Part shown: positions 4,870-43,871 of the stretch, piece by piece
How the letters are laid out: each line of letters opens with the position of its first letter
Numbering within the stretch: position 1 is the first letter of the stretch
Assembly: GCF_029962835.1 (NCBI RefSeq)
Contig: NC_080574.1
Span: 20,310,001 to 20,374,000 of the forward strand
Reading direction: 5' to 3'
Length of the DNA stretch: 64,000 nucleotides
Source: Magnolia sinica
Taxonomy: Eukaryota > Streptophyta > Magnoliopsida > Magnoliales > Magnoliaceae
The notes under the pieces: generated by a model
What the model saw: the letters and a program-made list of their open reading frames with translations, nothing else
Told to the model about the DNA's origin: nothing
Databases searched by the model: none
Program-made: the position numbers and the translations under genes

Positions 4870-6116
4870 GATTGGATGAAGAAAAGATGCATGCTACCGA
4901 GTTGAGCGCTAGAACATCTTTATTGTAAACATACAACTAGTGTATGATGATAAGGAGATTGATTTAGCTGGACAAAATGCAAGGAAATGTGATTGGACGG
5001 ACTACGGTAGATATTTGGCCTACAAAATCAACACTAAGGACAAACCTTGATTGGGTGCACGGCAACTGGTTGCTTAAAGTTGTCAAATCACCACAATATC
5101 TGGCTCATGGTCCATCTGAGCGGGGGTCTACCAGATCAATGGTCTCTATCTCAGCACACGTTCACCACATGCATGGTTCACATTTTGTGGAACTATGAAG
5201 CAATCGCCATCATATCTCCATCGGAAAAGATTGCGTGTGAACCCAGATGTTTGGTAGACTGAGTATCGTTGTCTGGGTTCATGACTTAATCTATCCACAG
5301 ATCCAATGGTCAGGATATCTCATGACAGCTCATACTTTTCCTATGACTTAATCTGTCCACAGATCCAATGGATTCAATGTCCACAAATCCATCTGGTTTA
5401 GTTTGAGTTAATATATCCAGCGTGTACAATTTTTTAGACAAAAGTATATGAGAAATGAAATTGGTGTTAAATGAAGTGGGATTTAATGGTTTAATTGTGT
5501 TTGGATAGAATTAAATGAAAAGTATTTAAAATTAAAATATTCTGTAGTCACAAATATCATCCTGATACAAAACTTTTGTCATACCTACTGTTTGGTGTGG
5601 TATTGCCCACATGAGTTTTGGATCCACCTGATTTTTAGACTCCTGTCCTATTGTGATCTTGCAAAACAGATGGATGGAGAGGATTTGTCACGGACATCTC
5701 TACGTGGCCCCACACATCCCTGTGTATAAAAATATCTTTGTGCCCGGGTCATAAGCAAACCGCTTGCGAATATAATAAGCAAACGGCTAATTGATCAATC
5801 CCTTTCCATCTACCCGAAAAAATAATCCAAATAAAAATAAAATTCCCTTTCCAGGAATAATTCTGTATGCGTTGATAAGGACCGTTGATTTTGTGGGACC
5901 AAACATTGGTGAGCCCTGTTGCAAAGGCCAAAAGTCAAAGGGGCTGGATTGTCGCATTAATGCGACCAATTGCATAAAATTTTCAAAAAATGGGCCGTGC
6001 TCATTTACTAACTAGTCTGTTGGATGGACTGCCCATAATTTGGATGGTCTGAATTGCTTGTGGTCCACATGTGCAATTTCCCTATAATTTCCCATGTACC
6101 GCTCATCTACCAGAAT
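4870..6116. repeat. Intergenic with repeat fragments
   Basis: No gene. A roughly 66-bp imperfect tandem duplication built on 'gacttaatctatccacagat' lies at about 5282-5375. A GTGGGCCC-family fragment lies at about 5590-5730, with gtggccccacac at its edge. Confidence 0.4.
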
Positions 6117-6740: not shown

Positions 6741-6748
6741 GTTCACGA

Positions 6749-8854
6749 AAGCCAATTGCGTATTCAATGAATTGTGGGGCCCGCTGTGACTTATGTATTT
6801 TATCCACTCTGTCAATTCATTTTACCAAATAATTTTAGGCCTTGATCCAAAAAATAAAGCATATCCAAAGTTCTTATGGCGAAGGAAGTTTCAGATCAAG
6901 CTTATATTTGTGTTTTCATTTCGTTCCTGTGATCTTATAAAGTGTTTGAATGACAAATAAACATAATAGACCCCGGGAAGATATCAACGGTGGAAATTGT
7001 TATTCCTACTGTTTGGTGCTCAGTACGATGAAAGCTTAATGACGCCCATCTCTCTTTTAACACAAACATCCCCACCCCACGTACCCATCCACACCAAATG
7101 GGCAATCGATCCATGGTCTGTGTTGAAACAGAGTCTGTCTAAGACTGAGCCATGGAACCGGACCCATGTTCACGTTCCTCTCAAGGTTACCAGCGGACAT
7201 TTTGTGCTTACAGCCAATGTGCAGCTCGTAAAGACATCCGAGCCGATGAAAAGGTAGGCCTCATCTAGAAGATCATTTGGTACAAAATCCAGGCCGTCCA
7301 TTCATTGAAAGGTTGGAATGTAGAACACATAAGAAGAAAAGTGTATAAAGTTAACACATACAATCAGGCTTAAGGTGAAAGGCAGCCGAGCTTTCTGTAT
7401 CGTGAAGGAAATGGCGGTACCCATCCTCCTCATTTGTGGCACTGATGTACAGCTAATCAGATAAGACCATTCAAAATCGCGGGACCTATTGCGCATGGAG
7501 AATATATCTAAAATTACATTGATCAAGCAATCCTAACCATCCAAATTCACCGAAATAAAATGAATGGTTAAAGATTCCACCAGTAAGAAGGAATCTCCCA
7601 ACGCTTTATTTGTTGTTTCGGTAGTCTGAGCAACTACTGGTATATATAATAGTCCCCGCAACTTCCGCGGGCACCTAAGAAGGTTTCAACGGCCGGCTTT
7701 CAATTCCTTCAATTTCTTGTGGTATAGTCCACTTTATTCTACATCTGCTTAAAATGAGATTGCAAAACCGATGAACCGAGTTGATTTCACATGTAAATGT
7801 CGGTGGGCCCCACACGGCTTTGGGGTTTTAGGAACTCAGCCGAATGGGGTTTCGGTGTATCAGGTTGGTGGGGCCCACCTTGATGTACGTGTATTATATC
7901 CACACTGTCCATTAGGTTTTCCAGCTCATTTTAGGGCATGATCCTAAAAATGAAGCAAATCCAAATCTAAGATGGATCACACCACATGAAACCGATGAAA
8001 CCATAGTGATTGGATGATCATTATTAAAACTTTTGGAGGCCACGAAAACTTTTGAATCAAGATGATATTTATGTGTCTCTTATTTAGGTTTTTGTGACCT
8101 TGTCAACAGTAAAATGAGAAATAAACGCTAAAAAGACCCAGCCAGTTTTTAATGGTGCGAGTTTAGTCGATGGGGTTCGTATGAAACATGGATCTGCTTA
8201 TTATTATTATTATTTTATCATATATTAGAATGAGCTGGAAAAATGGATGGACGGCATAGACGTAAGGCACGTGTATCACAGTGTCCCCACAGTCCGGGAT
8301 CCATCCACCTCGTTGAATCCCGGATCCACGAAAGCCGCATCCGAGGCCGCTGCGGCGGCTGTCCTTGCCAGCGTCTCATGGGACTGGAATTCGGTAGTGA
8401 CCCTCTAGTAATTGGTCGGTGCTGATTGATCCATGCCGTACATCCATTTTATTAACTAATGTTAGTAGATGCTACAAAAAAGAATAAGCAAATTTCAATT
8501 TCACTTACACCACACTGTAAGAAAGAGTAGCGATTGGGTGACTGCCATTCAAACTTTCGGAGGCTACAAAGGTATTGGGTAAGCTGATATTTGTGTTTTC
8601 TCTTCAGTCATGTCTATCAATAGGATGGATGACAAATAGACATTACACCGGGCCCGTGAAGTTTTCAATGGTGGGCCTTCAATCACCACTGTTTCTTGTG
8701 ATGTGGTGCATCTGAAATTTAAATCTACTTCATTGTAGGCTGATGATGGAAAATTGAATAATCAGAATAAAACGCATGCAGCACCTCCCGAGTAAGGGCT
8801 CATCGTGTAAACAATCCCAACCATCCAATCAGTGGGCTTCTACGGTTCCCCGAC
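6749..8854. repeat. GTGGGCCC-family TIR elements, including a good copy at about 7866-8290
   Basis: No gene. A copy with recognisable ends opens with 'ggtggggcccacc' at about 7864 and closes with the inverted counterpart near 8290. The arms pair through 'tccacactgtcc' and 'ggatggacggcatag'. Fragments of further copies fill about 6775-7560 and 8390-8850. A (TTA)n run lies near 8200. Confidence 0.55.
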
Positions 8855-9247
8855 GGAAACGGATTGGCTACTCCCCTGCCACCAGCCAGTGGTCGGTGCT
8901 CTGTGGGCCCCACCATGATGTATGTGTTTCATCCATGCCATCTATCTATTTTTCTAGATCATTTTATCCACCTATTTTTCTATAATTGAGGTATATCTCA
9001 AACTCAAGTGGACAACGTTATAAGAAATAGTGTTGAATGAAGGTCGACCATTGCAAACTTTTGGAGGGCTATAACCAAGCTGGTCTTTGTTTTTTCCCTT
9101 CATCTGGGTCATATGACCTGATCAACAGATTGAATGTCAAATAAACAGTAGGGTGGCATTAGAATAATTTTAATGATAGATATCCAATCATATAGTGTGG
9201 TCCACCTGATATTTATATCCCTCTCCTTTTTGGTGCCAATCCGTTTC
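8855..9247. mobile_element. TIR array element 1 (subfamily alpha)
   Basis: Begins GGAAACGGATTGGC and ends with the exact complement GCCAATCCGTTTCC. Behind the tip the left arm reads 'tactcccctgccaccagcc' and then gtgggccccaccatg. The right arm is shorter than the left. The interior carries the family core 'cttcatctgggtcatatgac' in forward orientation. Superfamily unknown. Confidence 0.6.
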
Positions 9248-9267
9248 CTTTAACTATTCGTATTACA

Positions 9268-9829
9268 GAAGCGGATTGGCTGGTGTACCACACACCACCA
9301 ACCTTGTGTTGATATCATTAAGTTCCGTGGATCTCATCATAAGGTATATCCTTCCATTAGATGAGATTGTTTTAACGCTCAAACCAAAAAATAAGACAGG
9401 TAAAAATATCATGTGGACCACATTGGAAGCAGCAGTGAGGGATTAAACGTCAACCATAGAAACCCATTTGGTCACATAAGTTTTAGATCAATATAATATT
9501 TGTTTTTCCTCCTTATCCTGATCTTTGTAATCTCATGAACAGGTTAGATGTTAAATGGGTATTATGGTGGGCTCTATTGATATTTTAATGGTGAGAATCA
9601 TTCCCACTATTATATGTGGTGTGGTCTGCTTCACTTTTGATAAAACTCTTTTTTGGCTTTAAAGCTCTAAAATTATTTGAAAAAAATAGATGAACGGGTC
9701 ACTGCGTAGCCAATGTAACTTTGATCATCTTTAAAACGTTCGTGCAGCTCGGAGCTCGACGAGATGCAGCGATCGCATTGGCGTGACACGTACCCACTAG
9801 TTAGGTTGGTGGTGTAGCGAATCCGCTTC
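9268..9829. mobile_element. TIR array element 2 (subfamily beta)
   Basis: Begins GAAGCGGATTGGCTGGTGTA, and its right arm reads 'ggttggtggtgtagcgaatc' then CGCTTC, the inverted counterpart. The interior core is in forward orientation ('gatctttgtaatctcatgaa'). It lies 20 bp after element 1. Confidence 0.6.
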
Positions 9830-9867
9830 CACGCTTTCAACAGCGCCCACTGCATCGTCCAATCAGG

Positions 9868-10233
9868 GGGACGCGGATTGCGTACTACCCCTGCCCGTCC
9901 CTAGCTCCGAACGGGCAGTTCTTTGGGCAGGCCCACCGTAACGTATCTATACAATCAAGTCGTCTAACCCTTTACTCAAATTATTTTAAGGTATTAAAAC
10001 AAAAATAGAGCTGATCCAACAGCTACACCACTGATGACTCTTGCATTTAATGTAAGTGACATTTAATGCTTTGTATATTTTAATGCAATCCAACTTATCA
10101 TTCGGTGTGCTCATGCCTTAAACGTAATCTGAGAAAAGGGATGGACGGCCCAGATGTACAGATTCATCACGGTGAGCCCAAAACTACCCGTTTGAAGGTA
10201 AGAACAGGCGGGGTAGTACGCAATCCACGTCCC
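9868..10233. mobile_element. TIR array element 3 (subfamily gamma)
   Basis: Begins GGGACGCGGATTGCGTACTA and ends TAGTACGCAATCCACGTCCC. The inner arms share 'cgaacgggcagtt' and 'aactacccgtttg'. This 366-bp element is the shortest in the array and has lost most of the family core. Confidence 0.65.
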
Positions 10234-10388
10234 GCCTCCATTCCGAAATCGGATTGCGTACTGAGTTACTGCTCTTATCGCACGGTGAGCCCAAAACTAC
10301 CCGTTTGAAGGTAAGAACAGGCAGGGTAGTACGCGATCCACGTCCCGCCTTCCGAAATCGGATTGCGTACTGAGTTACTGCTCTTATT
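10168..10388 (+). repeat. Direct tandem duplication, 113 + 108 bp
   Basis: Units 10168-10280 and 10281-10388 both run from 'cacggtgagcccaaaacta' to 'tgagttactgctctta' and differ by only a few bases and a short indel. Each unit contains the right end of a gamma element joined to the left tip of a delta element. The duplication therefore copied an element junction. Confidence 0.85.
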
Positions 10389-10829
10389 GTACTGAGTAAA
10401 CTCAGTTTGGCCCACCGTTAATGCATGTGGTTTATCCATGCCGTCCATTAGTTTTTCCATATCATTTTATTGGTACAACCCAAAATTGATGCATATATAA
10501 AACTCAAGTGGGCCATACCACTGGAAAAGTTTGAAGTATTGATTTCAACCGTTGAAAATTTTCTAAGGCCTCCGGTGATGTTTATTTCTAATCTAACCTG
10601 TTCATAAGATCATAAGGACATGGATGAAGGGAAAACACAAATATCAGCTTGATCTAAAACCTCTGTTGTCCCCAAGAATTTTTCAACGGTAGATGTTCAA
10701 TTCATACAATTTCTGGTGGTGTGTTAAAAGAGATGGACAGAGTGGATATAATGTACGAATGACACAGGGGCCCACGGAGTTTACTCAATACGCTTACCAT
10801 ACTGAGTTACTCAGTTCGCAATTCGCTTC
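10354..10829. mobile_element. TIR array element 4 (subfamily delta)
   Basis: Begins GAAATCGGATTGCGTACTGA and ends 'cagttcgcaattcgcttcc', the inverted counterpart. Its interior core is reversed relative to elements 1 and 2, with 'atggatgaagggaaaacaca' on the plus strand. Confidence 0.6.
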
Positions 10830-10846
10830 CCTCCATTCCGAGGTCC

Positions 10847-11410
10847 GGAAGTGGATTGGCTGATTTACCTCACACCAGCTATATAGCTGATGTGTTGAAG
10901 CAAGTTCCGTTAGTTTGATCACCAGGTATGTGTTATATTAAAACCCTACATCCATTTGAGAGATCATATTAAGGCTTGAGACTACAAATAAGATAGATAT
11001 GACTATCAAGTGGACCACATTACAAAACAGCAGGGGATTAAACATCTACCATTGAAAACCTTCTTAGGGTCACGGAAGTTTTGGGTCAAAATGAAATTTG
11101 TGCTTCCCTTTCATTCATGTCTTTGTAACCTTATGAATAGATTGGATGGAAAATAAACGTTAGGGTGGGCCTCATGAAATATTTAGTGGTGAAAATCATT
11201 ATCTCCGTTACTAATTGTGGTGTGGTGCAGATGATCTTTGGATATGATTCATTTTTTAGATAATGACCTAAAATGATCTCTAAAAATAGATAAATGGTAC
11301 ATATATGATAAATACATCACTTTGGGCTATGTAACTTTGATCTTCTTTGAGCCAGCTCGATGAGCGTCAGTGCTCGTCTTCGCACGACCCGTACGCACCA
11401 GCCAATCCAC
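10847..11410. mobile_element. TIR array element 5 (subfamily beta)
   Basis: Begins GGAAGTGGATTGGCTGATTT and ends 'gtacgcaccagccaatccac'. The interior matches element 2 over most of its length: both contain 'agttccgt', a similar 'aacctcatgaac'-type core, and 'gtaactttgatc' near the right arm. Core in forward orientation. Confidence 0.6.
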
Positions 11411-11424
11411 CCATAGAATGGTAC

Positions 11425-11826
11425 GAAAGCGGATGTGGACTGCGTAATACCCCATCACTACCTCCGAACGGGCAGTTTGTGGGCTGGCCCACCGTGATGT
11501 ATCTGTACACCCGAACTGTGTGTACCTTTTCTCATATTATTTTAAGGCATCACACGTTACTCTTGCATGAGCCCAAAGAGCAAATGGACCACACCACATG
11601 TTACTCTTGCATTTAATGCAACTGAGATTTAATGTTATATGCATTTTAATGCAACCAAGCTTATTATTTGGTTTGGTCCACTTGCATTGGATCGTCTTTT
11701 TTTATGCCTTAAAATAATATGAGAAAAGAAAATGGCAGTTTGGACATACAGATACATCATGGTGGGCCTGCCCACAAACCTGCCGGTTCAGAGCTAGGGA
11801 CAGGTAGAGGTAGTATGCAATCCGCG
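11425..11826. mobile_element. TIR array element 6 (subfamily gamma)
   Basis: Begins GAAAGCGGATGTGGACTGCG and ends 'gtagtatgcaatccgcg'. Like element 3 it has 'cgaacgggcagtt' in the left arm and a short interior with 'acatttaatg'-type sequence. It lies about 14 bp after element 5. Confidence 0.55.
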
Positions 11827-11838
11827 ACCTACAGGAGC

Positions 11839-12359
11839 GGGAACAGCTTGGCTGCTGCCCCTAACACCAGCCAATGGCTGGTGGTCAGTACTACGTGGGA
11901 CCTACCATGATTCATGAGTTTCATCCATACCGTTCATATATTTTTCTAGATCATTTTAAGGTATGTTACAAAATATGAGGTATATTCCAATCTCAATTGG
12001 ACCACATGACCATAAATAGTGTTGAATGAATGCCGACTATTAAAAACTTTTTGGGGGCCATACTTTTATGGATCAAGATGATCTTTGTTTTTTTCCTTTC
12101 ATCTGAGTATTTATGACCTAATCAACAAATTTGATGTCAAATAAACAGTTCATTGAGCCTTAGGAGGATTTAAATAGTGGATATCCCATCAGTATTATTT
12201 TCCCATGGTGTGGCTCACTTGAGATTTATGTCTCTATAATTTTTAGTATCTAAAAATAGATGAATAGAATAGACGAACCACATACATCATGGTGGGGCCC
12301 AAAGAGCACCGACCAACAGCCACGGGGATGGTGGCAGGGGGAGTAGCCAATCCGTTTCC
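11839..12359. mobile_element. TIR array element 7 (subfamily alpha)
   Basis: The left arm reads GGAACAGCTTGGCTGCTGCC and then 'ccagccaatggctggtgg'. The right arm is the matching inverse, with 'cggggatggtggcaggggga' followed by 'gtagccaatccgtttcc'. Forward core. The 'ccagccaatggctggtgg' segment is itself a palindrome. Confidence 0.6.
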
Positions 12360-12376
12360 ACCAAAGCAGATTAGCT

Positions 12377-12902
12377 GGAAACGGATTGGCTACTCCCTCG
12401 GCACTGGCCAATGGCTGGTGGTCAATGCTATGTAGGCTCCACCATGATTTATTTGTTTCATCCATGCTGTCATTCTATTTTTAAAGATCATTTTAAAGTA
12501 TGAGTCCAAAAATTAGGTATATCCAAATTTCAAGTGGACCACGTTACATGAAACAGTGTTGAATGAGGGTCGACTATTTAAAAACATTTTTGGGCCATAA
12601 AAGTTTTGGATCAAGCTGATATTTGTTTTTTCTCTTCATTTGGGACTTTATGACCTAATCTATAGATTGGATGTCAAATAAACAGTATAGTGGGCCTTAG
12701 AAGGATTTTAACTGCGGATATCAAATCGCTATTGTTTTCATGTGGTGTGGTCCACATGAGATTTATATCCCTCTCGTTTTTGGGATCAACACACAAAATG
12801 ACATGTAAAAATGAATGAGCGGAATTGATGAAACGCATGCATCATGGTTGGCCTACGGAGCACCGACCACCAGCCACGGAGCCCGTGGCAAGGAAGTAGC
12901 CA
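12377..12902. mobile_element. TIR array element 8 (subfamily alpha)
   Basis: Begins GGAAACGGATTGGCTACTCC and ends 'gtggcaaggaagtagcca'. It lies 17 bp after element 7, has the same orientation, and resembles it along its whole length. Confidence 0.6.
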
Positions 12903-13412
12903 GGAAATCGGATCGCGTACTGGGTCACTCACAATGCTCTTATCATACTGAGTTTGAGCCCACTGTAAATTTATGTAGTTTATCCACACCTTTCATCCAT
13001 TTTTCCATCTAATTTTAAGCGTTGAGCCCAAAATTGAAGCTTATAAAATTCTCAAGTGGACCACACCACAGGAAAACAATAGTGATTGTGAGTAATGATT
13101 TTCACCATTGAAACCTTTCTAGGCACACAGTTATGTTTATTTTTCATCCAAACTGTTAATAAAATCAAAACAACATGGATGAAGGGAAAAAACAAATATA
13201 ATCTTGATCCAAAACTTCTGTGGCCTCTAAGAATTTTTCAACAGTATAAATTCAATTCACACTGTTTCCTGTGGTGTGGTCCATTTTAGGGTTGTTATGC
13301 TTCGGTTTTGAGCTAAGGCTCTAAAATCATCTTGTAAAGTAGATGGACAGACTGGATAAAATACATAAATCAATGTGGACCCCACAGGGTTACTCAGTAC
13401 GCAATCCGCTTC
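12903..13412. mobile_element. TIR array element 9 (subfamily delta)
   Basis: Begins GGAAATCGGATCGCGTACTG directly where element 8 stops, and ends 'actcagtacgcaatccgctt' then C. The interior core is reversed, as in element 4 ('aacatggatgaagggaaaa'). Confidence 0.6.
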
Positions 13413-14040
13413 AAGTAGCCAATCCGTTTCCGATTAGCTGGTGTACACACCACCAATCAAGCGGTGTCGGTACGTCTCGCGCGGAAACGAGCGCAGACGC
13501 TTCTCGAGCTCCTGAGACATAGCTGTCCTTGTGGCCGTTCATTAATACATATTTACATTGCCATTCCGCATCCGACTGGAATCGTCTACTGCACCACTTT
13601 TACGCTGTGCATGATACGCCATGGTGCAAGTTATTTTACATGTAAATCAACTCTGTTCATCAGGTGATAATGATTATTTTGACCGTACATATAAAAGATA
13701 ACTCAAATTTAAAACTCATATGGCCCACACCAATAGAAACAATATAAAATTTCTCTCAAAACCGACATGTTCACACTATTTAGCCGGACTGAGTTTTTAT
13801 CAGGCTGTTTCCTTTTTAACATTCTCTTTATCCAGGCGAATTACACTTGATTAAGGGTTTCGATGAAATATATAACACAATGGTGACCCCACACATATCT
13901 ATGGTTGGCATCCCATCCCCTGTGGTGTGGTCCATTTGAGAGACAGATCTAACTGAATTTTGGAATTAGGGACTAACATATTGGATAAAATCTGATCGAC
14001 GGAGTGGGTTTTACATATACAACATGGTGGGCCCTACAGC
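13413..14040. repeat. Further TIR fragments upstream of the PMT26-like gene
   Basis: A partial tip, 'gtagccaatccgtttccg', at about 13415 looks like another array member without a partner end. GTGGGCCC-family fragments follow at about 13690-14035, closing with 'catggtgggccctaca'. No gene seen. Confidence 0.45.
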
Positions 14041-14333
14041 GTAAAGCAGCTGTTGCCTAGGATTCCAGTCCTTGTTGGTCGGTGTGTCGTGTCCATTGTT
14101 AGAAAGAGAGCTGTGTGCACTGCGGCTTCTCCCTGACCTTCGCTCATATTCCGGCCTTCTTGTGGCCACCTCTTTCTCTCTCAATAATAAAATATTCAGA
14201 AAAGGAAAACTCAAACCTTACCATTTATATATCTCTCTTTCCTCAAATTCTCGGAATCTCTGATCGTGAGGAAAGGAGGAAAACAAAATCTCGGCTTTTT
14301 TGCAGATCTGCTCCGATCTCCATTTCAAGAAAG
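14041..14333 (+). promoter_or_regulatory. Promoter and untranslated first exon of the PMT26-like gene (predicted)
   Basis: A pyrimidine-rich stretch (ctctctttcctc) leads to a good splice donor AAG|GTGAGA at 14333/14334. A leader exon ending here would join an acceptor ttttcag at 15718, leaving 34 nt of leader before the ATG at 15753. The TATATAT-like sequence near 14225 could place transcription start at about 14250. This is inferred from splice signals only. Confidence 0.4.
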
Positions 14334-21500: not shown

Positions 21501-22680
21501 ATGGAAATTCCAATGATTTTATTAGCCATCCGGTGGAGCCCATCGTGTTGGGTCCAACCTGTTATGTGCTGGTGCATCAGGACCCTATAATCCATGTAAG
21601 ATTATCGACTGTTGCAAGCGTTGATGAACAGCACGGATCACATGCCTGAGTAGCTCCACCTTCCCCGATACATTCACACGGGTAAATCCGAACCGTTGTT
21701 TGTACTTCGGAGCCAAATCAAACATATGAATGGACGGGCCTCCACACAAGAGCCGAGATTGAACACGTCTGCAAGACCTAGTCCATTCATCAAGTAGGTC
21801 ACACCGCACGCCCTCCCCCAAAAATCAGTCCGTCTCATTCATTCGCCGGCTACTCCGGTAGAAGAAAATCCAACGGTTAGAAAATGAGGACCAACGGCCT
21901 ACATTGTGAATTACCAGATGAGTGGAATACTGACTTCTGCACTGGGGTAGGCTCAGGACGCGAAATTCCTAGAACAGCTGTTGTGGGGAGCCCGCACAAC
22001 CCAAAAAATCTGTCAGGTGTGAGACATCCCCTCCGTCCGTCATTTGCACCATCTTTAAGATGGTAAGGCTAATCTAAAATTCAAGTGAACCTCACCACAG
22101 GGAAAAGTGGTCATGGAGACGGTTGCCATTGAAATCTTCTTTGGGCCAGGATCATATTTAGTTTTTCCATTAATCCTGGTTGGACTCACCTTATGAATGA
22201 CCTGGATGGAATATAACTATACGGTGGGCTCCACGAAAGTTCCAATTGCTGGCGTCCCCATCCCTACTCTTCCTTCCCTGTGGTGTGGCCCACATGAGTT
22301 TCTGGTTGGCCCGATTTTTGGCGGTCAGTCCTAACACGAGTCGGCCCAAAAGATAGATAGAGTGGATGCCCCACACACACATCAAGGTGGGCCCCGCAGC
22401 TTCTTTTTTTTTTTTTTGCACGGGCGATTAGGGTCCGTTCCGGCTGATGAATGAGCATACGTGATTACGTGTAAGGCGAAACCAATCCGTCCATCTGAAG
22501 CAAGCAGTCCTCGACTCAAACAGGGGATTCCTTTCCGTGGCTTCTATTGGTCCACGTCAGCGCTGATGATATCAGCTGACATCAGTTGCGATAATGTAAA
22601 GAAAATAAAAATAAAAAAATGGAAACACAACCGTCTTTCTAAATGGGAAAGAAAAGTATTTTCCTCTTTCAAGTGCATTG
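21500..22680. repeat. GTGGGCCC-family fragments
   Basis: Fragments occur at about 21530-21640, 21960-22080 and 22100-22400, the last ending 'aggtgggccccgcagc'. No gene; open frames here follow repeat sequence. Confidence 0.45.
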
Positions 22681-22689
22681 GCCCAATTT

Positions 22690-23093
22690 TCTCCGGACCC
22701 ACCATGCTGTATGTGTTAGATCCACACCGTCCATCCATTTTTCAAGATCCTTCAAGTGCATTGGCCCAAAAACGAGGCAGATCCAAAGCTCAAGTTGACC
22801 TCACGGCAGGAAGCAGTGGGGATTGACTATAGTAAACCTTTCAATCGGCCACCATGATGTTTATTTGCCATCTAACCTGTTAATTATGTCATACAGACTT
22901 GATGACATAAAAACACAAATATCAGCTTGATCCGAGCCTTCCGTGGCCCTGAGAAGTTTTCAATTCCCACGGTTTACTGTGGTGTGGTCCACCTGAGATT
23001 TAGATCTGCCTCATTTTAAGTTTCATAAATAACATGATCTCGAAAAATGAATGGATGGTGTGGATCTAACACATGCATCATGGTGGGGCCCAC
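22690..23093. mobile_element. GTGGGCCC-family TIR element, good copy
   Basis: The left arm 'gacccaccatgctgtatgtg' continues with 'ttagatccacaccgtccatc'. The right arm 'aatggatggtgtggatctaa' leads to 'catcatggtggggccc'. The arms pair over at least 60 bp. The interior has the family core in reverse ('aacctgttaattatgtcata'). No coding capacity. Target duplication not recognised. Confidence 0.6.
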
Positions 23094-23175
23094 CAAAATT
23101 ACACGTCTTCTCTCCAGAATTGGAATTCCTAGTGCACAACACAGGGACGGGATGTTTTTAACTAATTGGATTTCC

Positions 23176-23587
23176 GTGGGTCCCACCATGATGCATGTAT
23201 AAGATCCACTCCATCCGTCCATTTTTCTAAATCAATTCATGGCACGAGCCCAAAAACAGCCAAACACAAAGCTCAAGTGTAACATAACAGGGTAAACAGT
23301 GGCAATTCCAGGCCTACCGTTGAAAACTTCGTGAGGCTTAGGATCAAGCTTATATTTGTGTTTTCCCTTCATCCATGTTTGTGTGAGCTAATGAACAGGT
23401 TAGATAGAAAACAAACATTATGGTGGGCCATAAGAAGGTTTCAACGGTAATAATTCAATCCCAACTACTTCCTGCTGTGTGGTCCAGTTGATCTTTGGAT
23501 CTGCCTCATTTTTGGACCAACTCCCTAAACAGATCTTAAAACATTGATGAGCGGTGTGGATCTAGCACATACATCATGGTGAGTTCC
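23176..23587. mobile_element. GTGGGCCC-family TIR element, good copy
   Basis: The left arm begins 'gtgggtcccaccatgatgca' and the right arm ends 'agcacatacatcatggtgag'. The interior core is in forward orientation ('catccatgtttgtgtgagct'). The element ends about 240 bp before the NF-YB start codon, within its likely promoter. Confidence 0.6.
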
Positions 23588-23825
23588 AAAAAAGATCCAC
23601 ACGACTCATTCAAGAAAGCATAAACGGACACAACAGTCTACGTGTCAGTTTCCCATGGGCCCACTCGGGTAACCGCTCCACTGACGGAGCGGGTCCGAGG
23701 GTGAGAATCAACTGGGTCTAAACCTCTCCCCATCTCCACTTTTCTCTCCTCAACCCCTTTTATCTTGCCTCTTCCCAAACAATAAAATCCACCACATTGA
23801 AAAGATTTAGAGACAGACTCAGACA
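23588..23825 (+). promoter_or_regulatory. Likely core promoter and leader of the NF-YB gene
   Basis: About 240 bp with a pyrimidine-rich block 'cttttctctcctcaacccc' and a weak TATA-like 'ttttatc' near 23758, followed by 'caaacaataaaatcc'. No start site can be fixed from sequence alone. Confidence 0.3.
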
Positions 23826-32752: not shown

Positions 32753-34874
32753 ATATATATATACACACACACGCACACATCACAGTGGGCCCACACACTC
32801 ATCACAGTGGGCCCACACACATCACAGTGGCTGTGGCTCCACGTCCACCGTCCAGGCGGACGGTGGGAGTGAAACACATACATCAATGTGGGCTCCATGT
32901 GGGGCCCACCATAGTGTTTATATCCCATCCGGACCGTTGATAAGGTCCAGCAGACCTAGATGAAGGGTGAAAATAATTTTCACCCTGATCCAAAACTTCT
33001 GTGGGCCCCAAAAGGATTTCAAAGGTAGGGGTTAAATCCCGCTGTTTCATACGGTGTGGGCCACCTGAGCCTTGGATCGAGCTGATTTTTGGGGTGGGCC
33101 CACGTCAGGTAGGGGCCCACCATATGAACGGTTAAAATGACTTTATAAACATCAAGGTGGGGCCCACCTCGGCCTCTTGGGTCACGGCGGCGATCCACCC
33201 GCTCGGCCAGCGGCGCGCTGCTGTTGGCCGACACAGGCGTTCTGCTGTGTTTTTTATTTTTATTTTTTTTTGATTTACGCTTTTTCCATGGATTTTGCAG
33301 TGGGGTCCACCTCTTGCAGATCTGCTCCGTCCAAAGACTCCCCATGCTTCGACCAGCAAAACAAGCCCAATATTGGGCTGTTTCGTATAGAAGGGTTAGG
33401 AAAGGTTTCAATGGTGCAAACCCCCTTTTGCCACGGTATGGCCCGCCTGAAGGTCTGATGGATCCCATCTTTCCGGTCAACGGCTAAAAAGAGCTTGGGA
33501 AGGGAATGGATGGTGTGGATTTAATACATGCATCAAGGTGGGGCCTACATGAATAGGCCACCCCAAAACTTTGGAAAAAGTTGATATTTGTGTTTTTCCC
33601 ATTTACACGTCCAGCGTCCAGGGACGACGCTGGACTGTCTGGACATTTGAGGTGGGCCTGATCAGGTGGGCCACCACTGATGAGTGGTGTGGGTAGTACA
33701 CATATAAGGTGGGCCCTACTCAAATAAAATACTTACTACATGGTGGGGTCCATTCAAGCGGGCCATACAACCTTATCATCACACAACAAGATAAAAATAA
33801 TATAAAATAAAAATAAAACATAATGGGAGAGATATAGAGTGAGACCGTGTGATGGAGGGACCCCGACACTATGGGCCCTCCCTTGCACTAAATCATACAT
33901 CAAGTGGGTCCCATTACATGTGGATCCATGAAATGAAATCCTACGGTGGAGATCCTTTCTCCACTAAAATAAATGGTCTAGATGACCCTAAATGTGCAAG
34001 AAAGTAAACATCATGATGGGGTCCATGGAGAATGGCCCCATCATGGAACGATCATGATGATCAAGTGGGCCATCGGCCACATCTTAGGATCCAAAGTGAG
34101 ATCCAAACCATTGATCGGTTGGCCTCACTTGGTCCATCTTAAAAACATCAAAAACTATCCTATCCAAACACCCACCGCTTGATCTTCTTGCTCCCTTGGC
34201 TTCCTTAGCTCCTTGTACTACCCTTTGATGGAGGAAGATGGGAAATGGATGGTTGAGATGAGAGATGAAGGGGTGGGAAAGGTGGACCTCACAAAGGAAG
34301 TTTTCTCACCATGGGAGACTCATGGTGCTCTCTCTTGGATTTGGATTTTTTTTTTGAAAAAAAGAATAAGAGAGATAGTTGTAAAGGGAGGGAGAGAGAG
34401 AGAAAGAGATGGGTGATGGAGTGATGGGGGATGGTTTGGGTTGAAAATTGTGAAAAGGTGTATGGTTGTTGTTGAAATTTGGAAAAGAGGAGTGGTGAGG
34501 TGGAAAGAATGGTGGACTTTTGAAAAAGGTGGGGATGGGTTGATGTACTTAGGGTATGGGATGCTTTAATGGTTGATTGATGGGACTAATAGTAGAGATT
34601 CCCTCGAAATCCGCAACGCGCGGTGTTTCTTCGGAATAAACGCTGATCGGCATCTTCTTGCCTGGGTATCGGTTCGGTGCGCAAGTCACGGCGTTGGAAC
34701 CGCGGCGACGACGCGATCACCAAGACATAAGTTTCGGATCGAGCCGACGTCGGTGCGCAGGACCTGGCTTATGATCGTGCGCAAACACCGAATACGGTGC
34801 GAAGGTTGCCGGAATTTGACCGGAAGGACCGCGGAAGCTAACGGAACAGTACGGATTAGGACACGGGTCTTACA
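30786..34874 (-). repeat. Gypsy LTR, left copy (3' LTR in element sense)
   Basis: About 4.1 kb, nearly identical over most of its length to 39749-43871. On the minus strand it begins TGTAAGACCCGTGTCC right after a purine tract (aggaggggagag), as expected for a 3' LTR. It contains a tandem block of 'atcaaatgggcctcaac'-type units (about 32160-32610), an (AT)n run (about 32710-32761) and a copy of the GTGGGCCC repeat family (about 32790-33770). Confidence 0.85.
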
Positions 34875-41771: not shown

Positions 41772-43871
41772 ATATATATATACACACACACGCACACATC
41801 ACAGTGGGCCCACACACTCATCACAGTGGGCCCACACACATCACAGTGGCTGTGGCTCCACGTCCACCGTCCAGGCGGACGGTGGGAGTGAAACACATAC
41901 ATCAATGTGGGCTCCATGTGGGGCCCACCATAGTGTTTATATCCCATCCGGACCGTTGATAAGGTCCAGCAGACCTAGATGAAGGGTGAAAATAATTTTC
42001 ACCCTGATCCAAAACTTCTGTGGGCCCCAAAAGGATTTCAAAGGTAGGGGTTAAATCCCGCTGTTTCATACGGTGTGGGCCACCTGAGCCTTGGATCGAG
42101 CTGATTTTTGGGGTGGGCCCACGTCAGGTAGGGGCCCACCATATGAACGGTTTAGATAGCCTATAAACATCAAGGTGGGGCCCAGCTGGCCCGTCTTGGT
42201 GGTCAGCGCGCACCCGCCCTGCATGCGCAGGCGCCTTTCTTGACGCCAGAAAGCGGCTCGTGTTCTTTTGTTTTTTTTTTTTTTGATTTTTGTTTTTCCA
42301 TGGATTTTGCAGGTGGGGTCCACCTCTTGCAGATCTGCTCCGTCCAAAGACTCCCCATGCTTCGCGACAGTCAAAACAAGCCCAATATTGGGCCTGTTTC
42401 AGCGTATAGAAGTGTTAGGAAAGGTTTCAATGGTGCAAACCCCCTTTTGCCACGGTATGGCCCGCCTGGAAGTCTGATCGGTCCTATCTTAGGCCTCAAC
42501 GCCTAAAAAGAGCTTGGGAAGGGAATGGATGGTGTGGATCTAATACATACATCAAGGTGGGGCCTACACAAGTGGACCACCCCAAGGCTTGGGACAAAAG
42601 ATGATATTTGTGTTTTCCCATTTAAACATCCAGCGTCCAGGGACGCTGGACGGTCTTGCAATTTGAGGTGGGCCTGTTCAGGTGGGCCACCACTGATGAA
42701 TGGTGTGGGTAGTACACATATAAGGTGGGCCCCACTTAAATAAAATACCTACTACATGGTGGGGTCCATTCGAGCGGGCCACACAACCTTACCATCATAC
42801 AATAAAATAAAATAAATAAAAAGACATAAAATAAAAAGGGAGAGATAGAGAGTGAGACCGTGTGATGGAGGGACCCCGACACTATGGGCCCTCCCTTGCA
42901 CTAAATCATACATCAAGCGGGTCCCATTACATGTGGATCCATAGAATTGAAATCCTACGGTGGAGATCCTTTCTCCACTAAAATAAATGGTCTAGATGAC
43001 CCTAAATGTGCAAGAAAGTAAACATCATGATGGGGTCCATGGAGAATGGCCCCATCATGGAACGATCATGATGATCAAAGTGGGCCATCGGCCACATCTT
43101 AGGATCCAAAGTGAGATCCAAACCATTGATCGGTTGGCCTCACTTGGTCCATCTTAAAAACATCAAAAACTATCCTATCCAAACACCCACCGCTTGATCT
43201 TCTTGCTCCCTTGGCTTCCTTAGCTCCTTGTACTACCCTTTGATGGAGGAAGATGGGAAATGGATGGTTGAGATGAGAGATGAAGGGGTGGGAAAGGTGG
43301 ACCTCACAAAGGAAGTTTTCTCACCATGGGAGACTCATGGTGCTCTCTCTTGGATTTGGATTTTTTTTTGAAAAAAAAGAATAAGAGAGATAGTTGTAAA
43401 GGGAGGGAGAGAGAGAGAAAGAGATGGGTGATGGAGTGATGGGGGATGGTTTGGGTTGAAAATTGTGAAAAGGTGTATGGTTGTTGTTGAAATTTGGAAA
43501 AGAGGAGTGGTGAGGTGGAAAGAATGGTGGACTTTTGAAAAAGGTGGGGATGGGTTGATGTACTTAGGGTATGGGATGCTTTAATGGTTGATTGATGGGA
43601 CTAATAGTAGAGATTCCCTCGAAATCCGCAACGCGCGGTGTTTCTTCGGAATAAACGCTGATCGGCATCTTCTAGCCTGGGTATCGGTTCGGTGCGCAAG
43701 TCACGGCGTTGGAACCGCGGCGACGACGCGGTCGCTATGATATAACTTTCAGACCAAGCCGACGTCGGTGCGCAGGACCTGGCTTATGATCGTGCGCAAA
43801 CACCGAATACGGTGCGAAGGTTGCCGGAATTTGACCGGAAGGACCGCGGAAGCTAATGAAATGGTACGGAT
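39749..43871 (-). repeat. Gypsy LTR, right copy (5' LTR in element sense)
   Basis: Begins TGTCACGCCCC on the plus strand, next to the primer-binding site. It carries the same internal repeats as the left copy: the tandem TGGGCC block at about 41190-41640, a shorter (AT)n run at about 41741-41784, and the GTGGGCCC-family insert at about 41810-42780. Confidence 0.85.

Follow-up and report, generated by a model that had tools for sequence, protein, structure and literature searches.

The window (the whole stretch of 64,000 nucleotides analysed here, from a 1.84-Gb plant genome) carries nine short non-coding elements with terminal inverted repeats (TIRs), or MITEs, followed downstream by a gene with a methyltransferase domain. 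The elements had been described in an earlier note as lying end to end; all nine are present at essentially the places it gave, although some of the joins are nests, in which one element interrupts another (Table 1). Each of the nine finds its best pairwise alignment within its own arm type, and the four types stand in the order claimed: alpha, beta, gamma, delta, beta, gamma, alpha, alpha, delta. Elements of the same type are 18–25% diverged. When the first and last 130 bp were compared with shuffled sequence in the seven elements other than alpha 3 and delta 1, an inverted repeat above the shuffles was found in six, the seventh being beta 2 (score 42, with shuffles reaching 46.5). Related but diverged arms occur beside the array and elsewhere in the window.

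The outer tip proposed as common to all four types is only partly so. With at most one mismatch, GGAARCGGATTG matches 12 places in the window against 0.5 expected from shuffling, and 11 of the 12 fall within 8855–13431; the tips of gamma 1 (GGACGCGG) and of delta (GAAATCGG or GAAGCGG) nevertheless differ, and the left tip of alpha 2 is decayed. Likewise, the delta copies do align better when reversed, in nine of the 10 comparisons with alpha and beta elements (the exception is alpha 1 with delta 1), but this means only that those copies lie in the opposite orientation; arm matches are found on both strands. The 120-bp gap reported between the third and fourth elements does involve a local tandem duplication, but delta 1 starts at 10245 rather than 10354. 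By direct comparison the two copies, at 10168–10280 and 10281–10389, are identical at 69 of their first 73 bp, and since the duplicated unit contains the start of delta 1, the duplication is later than the insertion of delta 1.

Table 1. Elements and associated features of the array, in window coordinates.
Feature	Position	Strand	Remarks
Alpha 1	8855..9248	+	Right arm internally deleted; no clear target site duplication (TSD); spacer to beta 1 of 18 bp
Beta 1	9267..9830	+	No clear TSD
Gamma 1	9869..10232	+	Tip GGACGCGGATTG; no clear TSD
Tandem duplication	10168..10389	+	Copies of 113 and 109 bp: end of gamma 1 and start of delta 1
Delta 1	10245..10830	-	9-bp TSD CTCCATTCC at 10236-10244 / 10831-10839
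Beta 2	10847..11409	+	Right tip decayed; arms not above shuffles
Gamma 2	11431..11829	+	Tips GGATGTGGACTG / GGTCGCGGATTG
Alpha 2	11839..12359	+	Left tip decayed, right tip exact
Tenth element (beta-type), outer tip	12361..12376	-	Resumes at 13440-about 13530 once alpha 3 is removed
Alpha 3, main part	12377..12902	+	TSD GATTAGCT at 12369-12376 / 13432-13439
Delta 2	12903..13412	-	Inside alpha 3 right tip; 9-bp TSD AAGTAGCCA at 12894-12902 / 13413-13421
Alpha 3, terminal 10 bp (ATCCGTTTCC)	13422..13431	+	Beyond nested delta 2
Tenth element (beta-type), arm	13440..13530	-	Cut by alpha 3; far end not found

Nests and Mutator-type target duplications

Target site duplications order several of these events. 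Delta 2 interrupts the right tip of alpha 3, leaving the last 10 bp of alpha 3 on its far side; alpha 3 in turn lies within the tip of a further element of beta type, the tenth. Rejoined across alpha 3, the tenth-element tip aligns to beta 1 with a score of 42 (shuffled maximum 35), and its arm, compared with beta 1 and beta 2 in reverse complement, scores 34 and 37 (27 and 30 at most for shuffles). The duplication flanking delta 1 sits 4–12 bp outside the edge of gamma 1, its insertion point being within the 19 bp that separate gamma 1 from beta 2. The TSDs of delta 1 and delta 2 are 9 bp long, that of alpha 3 reads most readily as 8 bp with a further, ambiguous G, and no TSD can be read in the other six of the nine. 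The array, an extreme case with about ten elements, probably grew mainly by successive insertions.

A 9-bp target duplication is the hallmark of Mutator elements (9–11 bp across the superfamily), whose TIRs are long, about 100 bp or more, while hAT MITEs are recognized by an 8-bp TSD. We sampled 20 stretches of the genome (200 kb, not selected for packing) containing 107 candidate tip pairs, of which 25 have a 9-bp TSD with at most one mismatch, against 0.28 expected from cross-pairing of flanks; among pairs with good tips the proportion was 17 of 23. Under a looser scoring of the duplications, 17 of 25 pairs reached at least 6 and eight fell below, the 99th percentile of the null being 4.7. 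The arms of the 25 sample elements, compared over the first and last 130 bp, are long and imperfect (70–111 identical positions of 82–129 aligned). With the 9-bp duplications of delta 1 and delta 2, these features identify the elements as non-autonomous Mutator-type MITEs. A hAT reading, suggested by the 8-bp TSD of alpha 3, was set aside: 9-bp duplications dominate, and alpha 3 alone reads 8 bp in the window. The end positions of the TSDs are G or C in 35 of 50 cases (P 2.6e-5), while A or T at the second positions (31 of 50) is not enriched; the maize Mu target consensus is given as SW::SWNNNNNWS::WS in PMC2774946.

Insertions at resident tips across the genome

The exact sequence GGAARCGGATTGGCTR occurs 14,708 times in the genome, against once for the reversed pattern. 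For seven of the 25 sampled elements a resident tip lies no more than 30 bp from the centre of the TSD (1.2 expected, P 1.4e-4; two of the seven residents rest on a one-mismatch tip only), and for 18 none does; within 40 bp the number rises to 10, two of which form one mutual pair, against 1.6 expected. Tip density falls from 0.67 per 100 bp at 0–15 bp to 0.05–0.10 past 60 bp. Genome-wide, 125 places (53 + 72; two for the reversed control) carry an insertion in the outermost ~45 bp of a tip, as opposed to 13 (6 + 7) at 150–180 bp further into the resident, and the 30 bp downstream of an interior word (2,842 copies of its longer form) contained none. When 12 of the tip-insertions were fetched, seven had a 9-bp TSD with at most one mismatch (four of them perfect) and five gave none; by eye, the resident arm continues across the joint in at least six of the seven. 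Two places among the listed tip-insertions match the alpha 3-in-beta join of the window at the same tip position, one of them (L071) with a TSD containing one mismatch, and at a further locus (L032) the delta-in-alpha position is reproduced within 1 bp with a different incoming family. The suggestion in the earlier note that the elements prefer each other's tips is supported by the TSD-proved nests of the window, by the spacing of TSD-supported elements in the sample, and by counts across the genome that include controls for distance and for the element interior. Landing at tips is a well supported general feature of this genome.

Some of these counts include repeated copies. One nest accounts for 18 of the 100 tip-insertions listed, and a second for five more; composite transposition of nests was considered and rejected, as the five fetched copies of the first lie inside a larger repeat that is itself 94–99% identical from copy to copy. 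Residents of tip-insertions start with GGAAGCGG in 60 of 77 cases and with GGAAACGG in 17 (eight of these 17 with an alpha arm). A simple rule of insertion at any tip does not predict this excess of GGAAGCGG starts, for which the greater age of beta elements is a candidate reason. Certain positions recur, the resident keeping exactly 25 bp in eight of the 77 and 42 bp in nine.

Pairs of tips facing outward were found at 80 + 73, 48 + 57 and 23 + 21 places at gaps of 0–30, 31–61 and 150–180 bp respectively, the patterns being nearly palindromic and most places therefore counted on both strands. This slow fall-off indicates that the clustering is partly regional. Among the matches listed, 11 of 61 outward pairs have one common spacer, and the six such pairs that were fetched share long flanks with tandem repeats.

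Origin of the array and of the tip preference

We favour, with a probability of roughly 0.7, an account in which the locus is a nest and stack of tip-sharing Mutator-type MITEs that grew by separate transpositions onto resident tips. The types would have in common an outer tip of about GGANRCGGATT; each transposition would leave a 9-bp target duplication no more than a few tens of bp from a resident tip, on either side of its edge, and every arrival would add two tips, such that a pile-up could draw further arrivals. The six older window elements that lack a TSD presumably came by the same route. The alternative offered in the earlier note, that a small array was enlarged through unequal exchange, appealed to the repeated beta–gamma order, and that particular pair does recur in only 2.8% of random orders of the nine elements; one tandem duplication of 113/109 bp is also present. 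However, some ordered pair recurs in 50% of random orders, the two beta–gamma junctions align no better than shuffles (P 0.72, 0.15 and 0.78), beta 1 and beta 2 are less alike (75% identity) than other same-type pairs (79–82%), and three elements have TSDs of their own, all of which makes enlargement by exchange very improbable. Still harder to credit is an assembly artefact: misjoining can occur in dense repeats, but 18–25% divergence within types makes confusion of reads unlikely, TSDs match across the nests, and comparable joins turn up at many sites spread over many contigs.

Candidate causes for the preference itself are tethering by transposase and accessible DNA at tips. Under the preferred reading the preference would act at integration, most likely through a tip-bound transposase that captures or tethers the incoming transposase–element complex. 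A single transposase, or a near-identical set, may serve all the tip-sharing types, which is plausible because they share tip positions and TSD length. On the boldest reading, Mutator-type MITEs of a whole superfamily would seek out their own ends, tip-bound transposase steering copies of any tip-sharing family, a proposal to which we give slightly less than an even chance. A less probable but serious competitor holds that insertions go to open stretches near genes, resident ends staying open while the element body is packed, with no recognition of tips. Maize Mu insertions are described in PMC2774946 as tracking open chromatin, the array lies upstream of the methyltransferase-domain gene, and the outward excess declines gradually over about 60–180 bp; yet insertions drop about tenfold from the first 45 bp to 150–180 bp further in, so that an open pocket would need to stop just within each tip, and the recurrent positions within tips point to local DNA features. 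A third account is that tip and near arm simply hold good 9-bp Mutator targets; in its favour are the recurrent beta-tip target near GTGTACCAC and the G/C bias at TSD ends, which resembles the maize Mu consensus as given in PMC2774946. This we consider unlikely: the second consensus position shows no enrichment, targets are spread across some tens of bp, both inside and outside the edge, and many insertions lie in unrelated flanking DNA outside the resident tip, an excess that makes sequence preference an improbable sole cause.

PMC5907723 and PMC8449440 link the clustering of Mutator-type MITEs to microsatellites. The SaTar arrays of guayule and rice, as presented in PMC5907723, consist of non-autonomous MULEs linked by microsatellites, often lacking TSDs and not interrupting one another. 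Our elements resemble them in being short, non-autonomous and Mutator-type, with members of different families standing end to end much more often than chance allows, but differ in their 9-bp TSDs, in mutual interruption at tips (delta 2 in alpha 3, alpha 3 in a beta tip, and seven of the 12 fetched tip-insertions) and in their spacers: a simple repeat of at least 8 bp with at least five units was found in none of 27 spacers between abutting exact tips (30 pairs fetched, three unparsed). Pineapple likewise has two families of Mutator-like MITEs with similar TIRs that form clusters by inserting next to one another, with 46% of full-length elements in clusters; according to PMC8449440, though, those clusters lie in (TA)n and members with 9/10-bp TSDs in ordinary DNA are sparse single units, whereas here it is the TSD-making members that form clusters in ordinary DNA. 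Among the nested MITEs of maize and rice (Jiang and Wessler 2001, as reported in PMC5907723), too, elements lie within or next to MITEs of their own or another family, insertion into elements being the commoner there; both modes occur here, and the into-element insertions that we counted are concentrated at the tip. Finally, a tip-insertion yields two tandem TIRs on one side, as in MULEs with tandem TIRs, but the latter are described in PMC3310237 as flanked by a TSD on the outside, with none recognizable at the inner TIR, while the inner element here has its own.

In this genome, with many thousands of tips, clusters form in ordinary DNA, mainly at the ends of elements. If homing is real, the targets would be roughly 80 bp of ordinary DNA centred on the tip edge, arrays would nucleate and enlarge unaided, and tips would serve as disposable landing pads. 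Self-targeting of this kind could steer new insertions away from genes, inactivate older copies through damage to their tips, and build inverted-repeat-rich arrays beside promoters that might feed small-RNA silencing. As TSDs fix the order of events, whether targets are chosen via the elements' own bound ends or merely via open chromatin becomes a countable question.

A look by eye through open frames of at least 130 codons in L001–L020 revealed no MULE transposase, one tip pair 3.7 kb apart (L057) encloses no open frame of more than 88 codons, and the exact tip is absent from the viral contig collection. Seven of 46 outward pairs (the 61 less 15 recurrent ones) have an 18-bp spacer, a peak that is a lead only (P 6e-4 before correction for 31 lengths); the spacer between alpha 1 and beta 1 is likewise 18 bp. 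In a single case (L042), two elements appear to have reused one target, with an outer TSD of CCCCAACTC.

Elements of the array and their kind

The window (C2:20310001-20374000), taken from an assembly of 1.84 Gb in 127 contigs, contains plant-type genes and repeats (a methyltransferase domain, an NF-Y-type histone fold, a Ty3-type gag). The nine TIR elements of four arm types claimed in an earlier note are present: non-coding and about 360-590 bp long, each aligns best to its own arm type (75-82% identity). With one mismatch or none, the shared outer tip GGAARCGGATTG occurs 12 times in the 64 kb, where 0.5 would be expected, and 11 of these matches fall inside the array. The packing is not purely end to end, as had been claimed, but includes a two-level nest at the right-hand end of the array, formed by delta 2 and alpha 3 (see the table). 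The ATCCGTTTCC beyond delta 2 is the 10 bp missing from alpha 3, and the site rejoined after removal of alpha 3 aligns as a beta tip (score 42 versus a shuffled maximum of 35). The 120-bp gap ahead of the first delta element as originally drawn does lie, as proposed, within a local tandem duplication, with copies of 113 and 109 bp and of later date. The remaining six window elements have no readable target site duplication (TSD) and may be older.

Elements and element fragments in the window
Feature	Position	Setting	Sequence at the site
Delta 2		Inside alpha 3	9-bp TSD AAGTAGCCA on both sides, then ATCCGTTTCC
Alpha 3		Inside the tip of a beta-type element, the tenth	GATTAGCT at both flanks
Delta 1	Start 10245		TSD CTCCATTCC
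Diverged arm relatives	1357-1834, 2024-2318, 2553-2946, 5549-5765, 6744-7012, 7668-8312, 8355-8786, 13643-14050, 22024-22403, 22685-23588		
Two matching pairs of element fragments	32900-33552 and 41919-42573	Ty3-type gag/protease/RT frames between them	

Apart from one inverted, one-mismatch match near 5796, the tip was not found at one mismatch or fewer in the diverged arm relatives. With the array, these relatives take up much of the interval 6.7-14.0 kb, which lies upstream of the gene with the methyltransferase domain. The two fragment pairs, about 9,019 bp apart, are probably the LTRs of a single retrotransposon carrying old MITE pieces.

In a 200-kb sample (20 of 46 planned stretches around the first exact plus-strand tips along C1), 25 of 107 candidate tip pairs carried a 9-bp duplication with no or one mismatch, where cross-pairing of flanks predicts 0.28, and 35 of 50 TSD end positions were G or C (P = 2.6e-5). 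The TSD length, long arms and G/C ends fit the Mutator superfamily. Relatives of the tip bear other arms (GGATGCGG, GGACGCGG, GGAGGCGG), and the tip therefore marks a superfamily of families.

Landing at resident tips

We removed each of the 25 TSD-supported elements and sought a resident tip (at most one mismatch) near the TSD centre. In seven cases one lay no more than 30 bp away, where 1.2 were expected (P = 1.4e-4). Extending the distance to 40 bp gave ten cases against 1.6 expected; the P of 1.6e-6 here is too small, because a mutual pair accounts for two of the ten. Tip density per 100 bp of flank was 0.67 at 0-15 bp, 0.27 at 15-30, 0.40 at 30-45, 0.13 at 45-60 and 0.05-0.10 from there to 1.9 kb, a near-far comparison internal to a sample that favours element-containing regions, its stretches being centred on exact tips.

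Genome-wide, outward-facing exact tip pairs with gaps of 0-30 bp occurred at 80 places in forward and 73 in reverse; the counts were 48 and 57 at 31-61 bp and 23 and 21 at 150-180 bp. The reversed controls gave 0, and most places were scored on both strands; arithmetic from tip counts puts chance at about one, a few at most, per 31-bp bin across the genome. Insertions inside a tip were found at 53 + 72 places at gaps of 0-30 bp from a 13-bp tip (reversed control 2), and deeper in the resident, at 150-180 bp, at 6 + 7. No tip lay within 30 bp downstream of an interior alpha word anywhere in the genome; the longer form of this word has 2,842 copies. Together with the seven sample elements, these outward pairs and tip-insertions bear out the suggested preference for landing at each other's tips. 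Among 100 tip-insertions listed, 77 were apparently independent, 18 were copies of one nest and five of another. Residents of the 77 began with GGAAGCGG in 60 cases and GGAAACGG in 17, the latter being the commoner form (63 versus 37, counted by eye) among the first 100 exact tips listed. Outward spacers show a weak peak at 18 bp.

Twelve tip-insertions, all plus-strand matches hand-picked from the list, were inspected. In seven the incoming element had a 9-bp TSD, four of these duplications being perfect and the rest differing at one position. Judged by eye, the resident arm was continuous across the rejoined site in at least six of the seven; no TSD was seen in the other five. The window's alpha-in-beta event recurs in one stretch (L071) at an identical tip position, and in another (L032) the delta-in-alpha site was hit again, within 1 bp, by a different incoming family (TSD GGCTACTCC versus the window's TGGCTACTT, read from the tip). 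Of 30 abutting pairs 27 could be parsed, ten with a TSD score of at least 7.8 for one or both partners.

Alternative origins and mechanism

The repeated beta-gamma order had been taken as a hint of unequal exchange. For neither spacers nor flanks do the two pairs align better than shuffles, and some ordered pair recurs in 50% of random orders of these nine elements (beta-gamma itself in 2.8%), so that this origin is unlikely. Under random insertion into a growing cluster, a simple simulation places about 7 of 8 later elements in the interiors of earlier ones, whereas the three TSD-bearing window elements sit at tips or in a spacer.

The preference extends some 45 bp either side of the tip edge, and inside the resident the insertion rate falls about tenfold by 150 bp. 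The main rival to targeting through the tip is a pocket of accessible DNA common to the tip and its flank, and maize Mu does follow open chromatin (PMC2774946). The DNA outside the tip is arbitrary, and sequence alone therefore cannot explain the preference; the simplest mechanism would be tethering of the incoming complex by transposase bound to the resident tip.

Related arrays and other joins

Nested MITEs were reportedly described by Jiang and Wessler in 2001. The nearest known systems are the SaTar arrays of PMC5907723 and the mMITE clusters of pineapple (PMC8449440), likewise stacked Mutator-type MITEs that arose by adjacent insertion. Their members are joined by microsatellites and uninterrupted, whereas the Magnolia elements interrupt each other and none of the 27 spacers examined between abutting tips held a microsatellite; pineapple members with 9/10-bp TSDs are single, whereas Magnolia members with 9-bp TSDs cluster. 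In tandem-TIR MULEs (PMC3310237) the inner TIR has no recognizable TSD. In the parts of the open-licence literature covered, we noticed no account of Mutator-type MITEs whose self-targeting is concentrated at tips.

Several other joins deserve mention. In about six listed outward pairs 150-180 bp apart, an unrelated sequence resembling GAGAAATTTACGACTGTGGACCCCACC recurs between the tips; it may be a further small element that sits next to tips. Stretches L061-L065 carry a single nest, gamma-type inside a beta tip, multiplied within a larger repeat (copies 94-99% identical). In L051-L056 a spacer close to GTCCCGGATACGGACGTGGATCAGA is common to eleven alpha/beta pairs among those listed, and tandem repeats around ATGGGTCGCAGTTGTCCTGTTAT lie within the alpha-type member; such a pair may move as a unit. 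At 76-1201 of L042 two elements abut with CCCCAACTC as their outer TSD; a word similar to it lies between them, which would fit two uses of one 9-bp target.
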